Source of the DNA: Candidatus Cloacimonadota bacterium
Lineage (GTDB): Bacteria > Cloacimonadota > Cloacimonadia > Cloacimonadales > TCS61
Assembly: GCA_016935235.1 (NCBI GenBank)
Contig: JAFGRJ010000038.1
Coordinates: forward strand, 1-33,356
Reading direction: 5' to 3'
DNA length: 33,356 nucleotides
The notes beneath the pieces were generated by a model. That model searched no databases. It saw only the letters and a program-made list of their open reading frames with translations, and was not told where the DNA came from. The translations under genes were made by a program, and so were the position numbers. The first letter of the stretch is position 1. Each line of letters starts with the position of its first letter. Below are positions 29,383-33,226 of this stretch, one piece after another.

Positions 29383-29437
29383 TTTCAAGCTGAAAATTCC
29401 TTGACCAATCCTTTTAGAAACAAGTTTTAGAAAGAAA

Positions 29438-29464
29438 TTAGCACTCTAAGATTTAGTTTGACAA
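29438..29464 (+). promoter_or_regulatory. CIRCE-like element 1 (perfect left half, degenerate right half)
   Basis: TTAGCACTC-taagattta-GTTTGACAA; left half identical to consensus TTAGCACTC, right half 5/9 to GAGTGCTAA; correct N9 spacing. Confidence 0.65.
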
Positions 29465-29485
29465 CTTCCCCAATAAAATTAAATT
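29458..29485 (+). promoter_or_regulatory. Candidate hrcA-operon sigma70-type promoter
   Basis: TTGACA (29458-29463), 16-nt spacer, TAAATT (29480-29485). Confidence 0.5.
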
Positions 29486-29495
29486 GTCTTTTGAT

Positions 29496-29522
29496 TTAGC
29501 AGATTATTTACAGGAGTGCTAA
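29496..29522 (+). promoter_or_regulatory. CIRCE-like element 2 (degenerate left half, perfect right half)
   Basis: TTAGCAgat-tatttacag-GAGTGCTAA; left half 6/9, right half identical to consensus; N9 spacing; upstream of hrcA. Confidence 0.8.
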
Positions 29523-29533
29523 AAAGAGTCGGG

Positions 29534-30589
29534 ATGAAAAAGAATGAAATAAGGCAGGTTAATGTACTGATCTACCTGATCGAGGAGTATATTGATAACT
29601 GTGAACCTGTATCTTCAGGTCTCATATGTGACAAGTACATAAACCAGGCCAGTCCAGCCACAGTCCGGATAGATTTGAATAAGCTGGAGAAGGATAATTT
29701 GATTTATCAACCACATACTTCAGCCGGAAGGATACCCACTATCCAGGGTTACCGGCAGTATATCAGGTTCATTGCTTCTGATGTTGAGCATATGACCTTC
29801 CAGAAGGCTGATTTCCTGAGGGAACTTCTGGTAAAACATTACAAGGACACACCCCTGGCGCTGCACTATATAATGCAGTTGCTGGCTCAGGAGACGGACC
29901 AGTTGAGTTTTGTCGCAGAACCGGAAGTTTCCTATGGATATCTCGATAAACTTGAGGCATTCAAGATTTCAGATGATAAGTTATTATTTGTTGTAAGCCT
30001 TGATTCCGGGCTGGATAAAACGGTGATCCTCAAATGTGATCATCAGCTTACAGAGTTGCAGTTGAGGGCGCTGGTGCGTTATGTTAACGAGGAGTATGTC
30101 GGTCACAGGATCTATGATATTCAGAACAGGTTTATTAATGAAACTAGTGCAAAGGCGACAGATGAGAATCGTTTACTAAGGTTATTTCTGGAAGAGTTGC
30201 AGTCAGCGTTCACCGAGATAAGCAGTTATTTCATTCATTTTGATGGAAACATCAGTTTTCTGGAACAGCCCGAGTTCGATGACAAGAGCTCTATTCTGAC
30301 TTTTCTGGGTTTTGTCCAGAGACAGGATTATCTGGTTAACCTGATGCAGAAATTTGATTCCAGCCGCAGCTATTATGTTCTGATGGGAGAAGATATGGGT
30401 CAACCCCAGCTTTCCAATTATAGCCTGATATATTCTCGATATGAGATTTTTGGAATTCCAGGTTATCTGGGTATTGTAGGTCCTACGCGAATGAATTACC
30501 GCAGATATATTCCCATCATCAGGGACATGGCGAAAGTAATAACCAATACAACCAAGAAAGGCATGGTGGTACCGAGGGATGAACAGTAA
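29534..30589 (+). CDS. hrcA: Heat-inducible transcription repressor HrcA
   Basis: RQVNVLIYLIEEYIDNCEPVSSGLICDKY, SPATVRIDLNKLEKDNLIYQPHTSAGRIPTIQGYRQYI, GIVGPTRMNYRRYIPIIRDMAKVI. Track start GTG 29516 lies inside CIRCE element 2; ATG 29534 is preferred. Confidence 0.95.
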   Translation: MKKNEIRQVNVLIYLIEEYIDNCEPVSSGLICDKYINQASPATVRIDLNKLEKDNLIYQPHTSAGRIPTIQGYRQYIRFIASDVEHMTFQKADFLRELLVKHYKDTPLALHYIMQLLAQETDQLSFVAEPEVSYGYLDKLEAFKISDDKLLFVVSLDSGLDKTVILKCDHQLTELQLRALVRYVNEEYVGHRIYDIQNRFINETSAKATDENRLLRLFLEELQSAFTEISSYFIHFDGNISFLEQPEFDDKSSILTFLGFVQRQDYLVNLMQKFDSSRSYYVLMGEDMGQPQLSNYSLIYSRYEIFGIPGYLGIVGPTRMNYRRYIPIIRDMAKVITNTTKKGMVVPRDEQ

Positions 30590-31241
30590 GAAAAAATTGC
30601 AGAAAACAAAGGGGATGCAGCTTGAACCTGAGAAGACAGAAGATAAAATGGTCTCTTCCCAGGAACAGGAAGAATCATCTGGTGGTGAGAAGCAGCGACT
30701 GAGCTGGAAGGACAAATATCATCTTCTGGAATCTGAGATAGAAGCCCTGATGGATCAGAAGATGCGGCTGGCGGCAGATTTCGAGAACTTCAGACGTCGC
30801 ACCAACAGTGAAAAGGCTGACTGGATAAAAAATGCTACGGAGAGACTGGTCCTGGAAATCTGTGATGTATTTGATAATTTTGAAAGAGCCCTGCATCCGG
30901 AGACCGAGAAAAGCAGCAAGGATTCTTTCCGTCAGGGAATTGAACTGATATTCCACCAGCTGGGAGAATTATTGAAGAAAGAAGGTGTAAAGAAAATTGA
31001 GGGTCTGGGAAAGGAATTCGATCCGCAATTCCATGATGCTCTGGTACACATTCCTTCCGATTTTCCGGAAAACAAGATTGTAGCGGTAATTCAGAATGGT
31101 TATACGATGAACAATAAATTAATCCGGGCTGCCAAAGTTGCTGTTTCTAACGGACAGAAACCTGTTCTGCCAGAAGATCCCGGAAGAAAGAAAGATGAAA
31201 ATGATAAGGATTTAGAAAAAGTTAAGCAAGAGGATAAATAG
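30579..31241 (+). CDS. grpE: Nucleotide exchange factor GrpE
   Basis: [89 protein letters not shown]. Confidence 0.95.
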
Positions 31242-31249
31242 GAGGCAAG

Positions 31250-33226
31250 ATGGGTAAAATTATAGGTATAGATTTGGGAACCACTAATTCCTGTGTTGCT
31301 GTTATGGAAGGTGGAAAACCAGTTGTAATACAGAATGCTGAAGGTTCTCGCACGACTCCATCGGTAGTAGCTTTTACCAAGGACAAGGAAAGATTGGTGG
31401 GTCAATTGGCGAAGAGACAAGCTGTAACCAATCCCAGGAATACAGTATCCTCCATTAAGCGATTCATGGGTAGGCAGCTTAATGAGGTAGGTTCTGAAAT
31501 CAAAAGTGTCACTTATCAGGTTAAAGGTGGAAAATTTGGTGAGGCCACCGTACATATTGATGTGGAAAACAAGGATTTTACACCTCAGGAAATTTCTGCC
31601 ATGGTACTCACAAAGATGAAGGAAACGGCAGAAGCACATCTGGGTCAGAAAATTACGGAAGCGGTTATAACTGTTCCAGCTTATTTTAATGATGCTCAGC
31701 GTCAAGCCACCAAGGACGCCGGTCGCATATCCGGTCTTGATGTGAAAAGAATAATTAATGAGCCTACAGCGGCAGCCCTGGCTTATGGACTGGAAAGTAA
31801 GAAAGAAGAAAAAGTGGCAGTCTATGATCTGGGTGGAGGGACTTTTGATATCTCCATTCTGGAAGTGGCTGAGGGTGTGGTGGAAGTTCTCTCCACAAAT
31901 GGTGATACCCACCTTGGCGGGGATGATTTCGATAAAAAGATAATGGACTGGATTCTGGAAAGTTTCAAGAAACAGGAAGGGATAGATATATCGAATGATC
32001 CAATGGCTATGCAGAGAATTAAGGAAGCTGCTGAGAAAGCTAAGGTAGAGCTTTCCGGAACACAGACTACCAATATTAACCTGCCCTTTATCACAGCGGA
32101 CGCTTCAGGTCCCAAACATCTGAATCTCAATCTGAGTCTGTCCGAATTCAATCGCATGACCCATGACCTGGTGGAAAGAACCCTGGGTCCTTGCCGTCAG
32201 GCTCTGAAGGATGCTAAACTTTCCCTGGGTGAAATTGATGAGATAATCCTGGTGGGAGGAAGCACCAGAATCCCGGCGGTCAAGAATGCTGTAGAGAAAT
32301 TCTTCAATAAGAAACCAAACCAGAGTGTTAATCCGGATGAAGTGGTTGCCGTGGGGGCAGCCATTCAAGGAGGTATTCTGGCTGGTGATGAAAACCTGAG
32401 TGACATTCTGCTCCTTGATGTTACCCCACTCACACTGGGCATTGAAACGCTGGGAGGTGTTATGACTCCCCTGATCGAAAGAAACACCACTATTCCTACC
32501 AAGAAAAGCCAGATCTTTTCCACGGCATCAGATAACCAGCCGGCAGTCGGCATCGTGGTACTGCAGGGAGAAAGAACTATGGCCAAGGATAATCGCAGAT
32601 TGGGCAGTTTCGAACTGACCGGGATTCCACCGGCACCTCGTGGGATTCCTCAGATTGAAGTTACTTTTGATATCGATGCTAATGGCATACTGCATGTATC
32701 AGCGAAGGATAAGGGAACTGGCAAGGAACAATCAATTAAAATTGAAAGAACAGGTACCCTGAGTGAGGAAGAAATTCAGCGCATGGTCAAGGATGCTGAA
32801 GCACATGCTGATGAGGATAAGCATATGAAGGAATCGGTCACAGCAAGAAATGAACTGGACACCTTGATCTTCAGTACTGAGAAAAGTCTGCAGGAATATG
32901 GTTCCCGGTTATCATCTGATGAACGCAAGAAAATAGAGGAAGCAATAAAAGAAGCAAAGGAAAAGATGAAAACCCTGACCGATAAGTCTGCCAGCAAGGA
33001 TGAATTTGAGAAAGTCCGTGATGAACTGGGACGTAAGGCCCAGAAACTTGGCGAAATAGTCTATGCTGAAATGCAAAGGCAACAGGGCGCACAGGCGGGA
33101 CCGGGAGCAGAAACTTCGGAAGCGGAATTCGATGCCAGTAAAATGCATGGCAAGTCAGGAAGCGAAGAAGAAAAGGACCAGGGTCCTGTAGATGCTGATT
33201 TTGAGGTTGTTGACGATGATAAATAG
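31250..33226 (+). CDS. dnaK: Chaperone protein DnaK (Hsp70)
   Basis: [71 protein letters not shown]. Confidence 0.99.

Follow-up and report, generated by a model that had tools for sequence, protein, structure and literature searches.

The hrcA-grpE-dnaK locus and its predicted promoter

The window analyzed here, meaning the whole stretch of 33,356 nucleotides, comes from Candidatus Cloacimonadota and contains ruvB and rarA followed by hrcA, grpE and dnaK (Table 1). The start of hrcA was assigned to the ATG that begins MKKN and is aligned with residue 1 of relatives, while the GTG at 29516, which would give a longer open reading frame, is an unlikely start. The window HrcA is 51-75% identical to the Cloacimonadota records of the named genome collection and about 50-74% identical to relatives in genomes of the same order. 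Exceptions in the collection are two MAG records titled Armatimonadota (L063 and L064), which share 72% identity with the window in HrcA and are probably mislabelled Cloacimonadota. Of the in-frame stops reported in the hrcA of relatives, the one examined (L080) is the ordinary terminal stop.

Table 1. Genes and predicted regulatory features at the hrcA promoter, in positions of the window
Feature	Position	Strand	Basis
E1, upstream CIRCE-type operator (predicted)	29438..29464	+	N9 geometry 20 bp before the -35, common to 72/92 leaders
E1 left arm, TTAGCACTC	29438..29446		
E1 spacer	29447..29455		
E1 right arm, GTTTGACAA	29456..29464		
-35 hexamer TTGACA	29458..29463	+	promoter scan; invariant in fused (type A) leaders
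-10 hexamer TAAATT (TAnnTT at N16 in the clade)	29480..29485	+	promoter scan, leader comparison
TTGTC, extension of the -10 region	29484..29488	+	conserved: G 0.91, C 0.88, genus-weighted
E2, downstream CIRCE operator (predicted)	29496..29522	+	covers predicted start and leader
E2 left arm, TTAGCAGAT	29496..29504		
E2 right arm, GAGTGCTAA	29514..29522		
hrcA, heat-inducible repressor	29534..30589	+	TIGR00331, 208.9 bits, cut-off 197.2
grpE	30579..31241	+	GrpE models, E down to 6e-45
dnaK	31250..33226	+	TIGR02350, 972.6 bits

In the promoter scan TTGACA pairs with TAAATT at N16 spacing (10/12 promoter match), and an N16-TAnnTT after the -35 is also found in other chaperone promoters of the clade. 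The TTGTC at the -10 region repeats GACAA (29460-29464) in inverted form at a distance of 24 bp. It is conserved through the whole order but absent from the sister families, and could represent either an extended -10 or another operator. Matches to TTGACA-N16-TAnnTT across two genomes gave a mixed picture, with some promoters ending in TTGTC, TTTTC or TTATC.

A first, sequence-only reading of this DNA had noticed two perfect arms, TTAGCACTC and GAGTGCTAA, separated by 67 nt, and had assigned each to an N9 element with one degraded arm, the two elements being offset by 58 bp. Both arms and both elements (E1 and E2) lie exactly where it placed them, and these two arms are the only perfect copies of the arm 9-mer on either strand of the window. 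When CIRCE elements with up to three mismatches are searched for, E2 is the sole match in the window, and 1 of 100 shuffles yielded one. E2 has the inverted 9-bp arms of the TTAGCACTC/GAGTGCTAA type with N9 between them that define a CIRCE/HrcA operator, and it agrees with the general consensus at 15/18 positions (order mean 6.8 + 8.3 of 9 + 9). E1 agrees with it at 14/18, one arm at 5/9, and the -35 hexamer occupies positions 3-8 of its right arm.

Another proposal for the two perfect arms was a long-range 9-bp RNA stem in a longer transcript. This stem is present in the minimum-energy fold of 29430-29540, but the fold itself is unremarkable (z = -1.4) and E1 lies upstream of the -35, outside a transcript that starts from this promoter. 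Nor do the outer arms covary: they have 587 complementary positions where shuffled arms have 585.1 ± 3.9, and 0.36 of the shuffles reach the observed value. Neither the arm covariation nor the unusual stability of an RNA leader stem was found, and with its position also against it we consider the stem extremely improbable.

Two layouts of the hrcA leader

We compared 92 hrcA leaders of the order, anchored on the -35; the leader L058, which has no recognisable promoter, was excluded. A fused layout (type A) is found in 72 of the 92, covering 33 genera and 11 families, so that the pair of putative operators around one promoter, claimed from a single leader, recurs in all of these. In type A the left arm of E1 lies exactly 20 bp before TTGACA, the N9 spacing of E1 is always preserved and E2 starts 55-58 bp after the start of E1. 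Matches of at least 8/9 to TTAGCACTC stand exactly 20 bp before TTGACA in 68/92 leaders, where a Markov model expects about 0.00016 per leader, and elsewhere matches of this quality occur solely 34-35 bp before TTGACA (17 leaders). Since the relatives keep the left arm at a fixed distance from the -35, a chance origin of E1 is excluded.

The left arm of E1 averages 8.5/9 over the 72 species, with its G and C positions at 1.00, and the outer arms of the pair are in general better kept (8.5 and 8.3 of 9) than the inner ones (5.6 and 6.8). The E1 spacer is also strongly conserved in type A, as TMA-n-WTTTW with A at -9 and TTT at -6 to -4, whereas ordinary CIRCE spacers lack such strong conservation. 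This may reflect contact by another factor or by the polymerase, and the spacer is possibly a proximal UP element.

A separated layout (type B) is found in 19 leaders of six genera, all within the window's family. Here E1 comes closer to a complete CIRCE, usually TTAGCACTC-N9-GTCTGCTAA and 16/18 or better in most leaders, and ends about 8 bp before the -35. Where E2 is retained, it begins 70-74 bp after E1, with a single exception. Counted from the start of the -35, E2 begins 35-38 bp downstream in nearly all leaders of both types. In two separated leaders (L030 and L031) E2 is lost and E1 is kept. One genome (G014, a 61% complete MAG) retains the promoter and HrcA and has lost both hrcA sites, so the two-site design is not essential. 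This genome has apparently lost hrcA autoregulation but keeps a CIRCE at groES (L019, L185).

One of the questions raised by this geometry is whether the HrcA dimers at E1 and at E2 make contact and so loop the DNA, or form a cooperative assembly, around the promoter. Two imperfect sites that flank one promoter and whose offset varies little (57 ± 1 bp in most of the leaders), together with the better-kept outer arms, would fit such bridging, which the sequence-only reading had suggested. However, the conserved helical phase of a looping pair was not found: the offset moves from 55-58 bp to 70-71 (and 73-74) bp, about 1.3 helical turns, and the phase is not restored. The offset is also already fixed by the promoter geometry, E2 keeping its distance from the -35 in both layouts, E1 persists alone in two genomes, and the sites at groES, htpG and clpB are single CIRCE elements. 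Based on this evidence, bridging appears unlikely.

The history of the two layouts can be approached through two sister families of the same class (f12 and f13, outside the order), in which the promoter spacing is the same as in the order. These have one near-perfect CIRCE (16-18/18) and, unlike the order, no E1; the CIRCE lies 37-41 bp after the start of the -35, which is the E2 position. A single canonical CIRCE in relatives had been named beforehand as a finding that would speak against the paired reading, and it does occur, but only outside the order. The single CIRCE of these families is an ancestral-looking state and does not overturn the paired reading; most simply, E2 would be the old site and E1 a gain made at the base of the order. 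All other families sampled have type A, and type B arose inside the window's family. On well-supported branches of the HrcA tree the B label has to change three times or more, and one B leader stands beside A leaders within a single genus.

The right arm of E1 and the embedded -35

CIRCE right arms in the clade read GANTGCTAA, or GTTTGCTAA at groES, and against these forms the right arm of E1 matches at 6-7/9, so that the 5/9 first given for it holds against the general consensus but undersells the arm. Compared with the groES arm of its own genome, GTTTGCTAA, the hrcA arm GTTTGACAA differs only by CT to AC at arm positions 6-7, which turns TTGCTA into TTGACA, and the hrcA arm found in the Cloacimonas family (GATTGACAA) is also two changes away from the local arms. 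The right arm therefore diverges because the -35 is embedded in it, as had been proposed, the difference being just the two bases that make TTGACA.

Position 1 of the fused arm lies outside the -35 and is G in 70/72 type A, 5/19 type B and 0/11 sister leaders. Between A and B this gives a Fisher p = 1e-10, or p = 2e-4 by genera (33/33 v 2/6), p values that are inflated by relatedness. Such a G is expected if HrcA still reads the arm, and the promoter does not explain it.

The degenerate arm could also mean that E2 is the sole working operator and that E1 is a relic kept as promoter or UP-element DNA, to which the 5-6/9 match to the general consensus and the AT-rich spacer, conserved like a possible UP element, would correspond. 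A relic is hard to reconcile with a left arm held across 72 species at its GC positions too, with a full CIRCE at E1 in 19 relatives, with a position-1 G chiefly in fused arms and with the two genomes that lost E2 and retained E1, and we give this option a very low probability. Because those 19 leaders of the window's family carry a fuller E1, E1 is taken as a CIRCE and not as a mere promoter flank. The best reading is that E1 is a real HrcA operator whose fit was probably given up in part for a strong -35, and that E2 takes a share of the repression.

Regarding the fused pattern outside hrcA, two loci (L150 and L153) were checked and both lie in other contexts. A CIRCE-like element with the right arm GATTGACAA was seen before hslV (L152, 1427-1452; G051:C320), where no clear -10 lies downstream.

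Other promoters of the regulon

The window's element stands in a class I chaperone context, at hrcA itself, and its own genome also has CIRCE elements at groEL, groES, hsp20/clpB and htpG. Both here and in G043, a complete genome, the CIRCE ends 6-8 bp before the -35 at htpG, clpB and hsp20 and lies over the start at groEL. A single CIRCE between hsp20 and the divergent nitroreductase-clpB pair (L003:1501-1527; G000:C151) has a -35-like box about 8 bp away on each side and could serve both sides.

At groES, 20/43 leaders have N16-TAnnTT behind a TTGCTA that lies inside the CIRCE right arm, N16 being the peak among the spacings. Alternatively, TTGAC[GT] lies 13 bp before the CIRCE left arm in 27/43 leaders; TAnnTT shows no preferred spacing behind it, and an upstream promoter with a different -10 is possible. 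The parallel between groES and the E1 of hrcA is supportive but not proof. A place upstream of the -35 or overlapping it is a normal one for operators in the clade, and this supports E1 as a working site. The genes of an ABC transporter, an unusual HrcA target, also have a CIRCE upstream, 6 bp from a TTGACA that follows it (ATPase and permease; L157, G000:C70:3863-3889).

Proposed load sharing and mechanism

By genus, matches at E1 rise from 13.8 of 18 in type A to 15.7 in type B (p = 0.0003) and those at E2 fall from 15.1 to 13.5 of 18 (p = 0.02), p values that are not corrected for ancestry. The trade-off is also seen inside the window's family (E1 p = 0.002, E2 p = 0.01, again not ancestry-corrected), and it rests on six B genera, several of them related by the tree. 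Where E1 is free of the -35 it is the better site, and E2 is decayed or gone. The comparison suggests that the two sites are partly interchangeable.

We propose that the hrcA-grpE-dnaK promoter of the order is probably closed by HrcA at two CIRCE operators, E1 and E2. At E2, the older site just downstream of a start predicted at about 29490-29494, HrcA would block initiation or escape. E1 would have been added upstream with its left arm intact and its right arm overwritten at two positions to spell the -35, and HrcA bound there would cover the -35 and the AT-rich upstream stretch, thereby competing directly with RNA polymerase. Each site should be weaker than a perfect CIRCE, so that E1 and E2 would share the load by additive repression and, since neither is at full strength, the promoter could be released readily when HrcA is inactivated by heat. 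A stronger version, in which HrcA acts as a two-site cooperative gate in Cloacimonadota, with E1 half-broken by the -35, the dnaK operon released at a low threshold and the conflict between operator and promoter resolved in two interchangeable ways, seems doubtful to us.

These leaders offer a natural experiment on the sharing of letters between an operator arm and a -35, with about 90 species fused or separated and single-site sister families beside them. They also extend the HrcA regulon and its operator positions to the phylum Cloacimonadota, and the layout of E1 and E2 can guide promoter annotation there.

Comparison with known systems

In our literature search no paper on HrcA in Cloacimonadota was found, and in the titles and abstracts of the open library, whose scope leaves out most subscription papers, we found no description of a CIRCE arm shared with a -35. 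A single CIRCE over the start is a common arrangement, seen for example in the footprints over the start site in Campylobacter jejuni (PMC7464140). Operators of this kind, including the Bacillus subtilis type, have the same TTAGCACTC-N9-GAGTGCTAA geometry, and E2 likewise lies over the start. In contrast to the Cloacimonadota order with its E1, they consist of one site and lack an upstream site that overlaps the -35.

The closest likeness is the dnaK operon of Lactococcus lactis, in which, as cited in PMC1676014, two CIRCE elements overlap the promoter, so that two CIRCE elements at one dnaK/hrcA-type promoter are common to both systems. The Cloacimonadota pair differs from L. lactis, as far as that citation goes, in the -35 that shares the letters of an arm, in the conservation across the order and in the alternating separated layout. 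A dnaK promoter with two CIRCE elements is thus known already, and what appears to be new is a variant in which the sharing between an arm and the -35 is conserved across an order.
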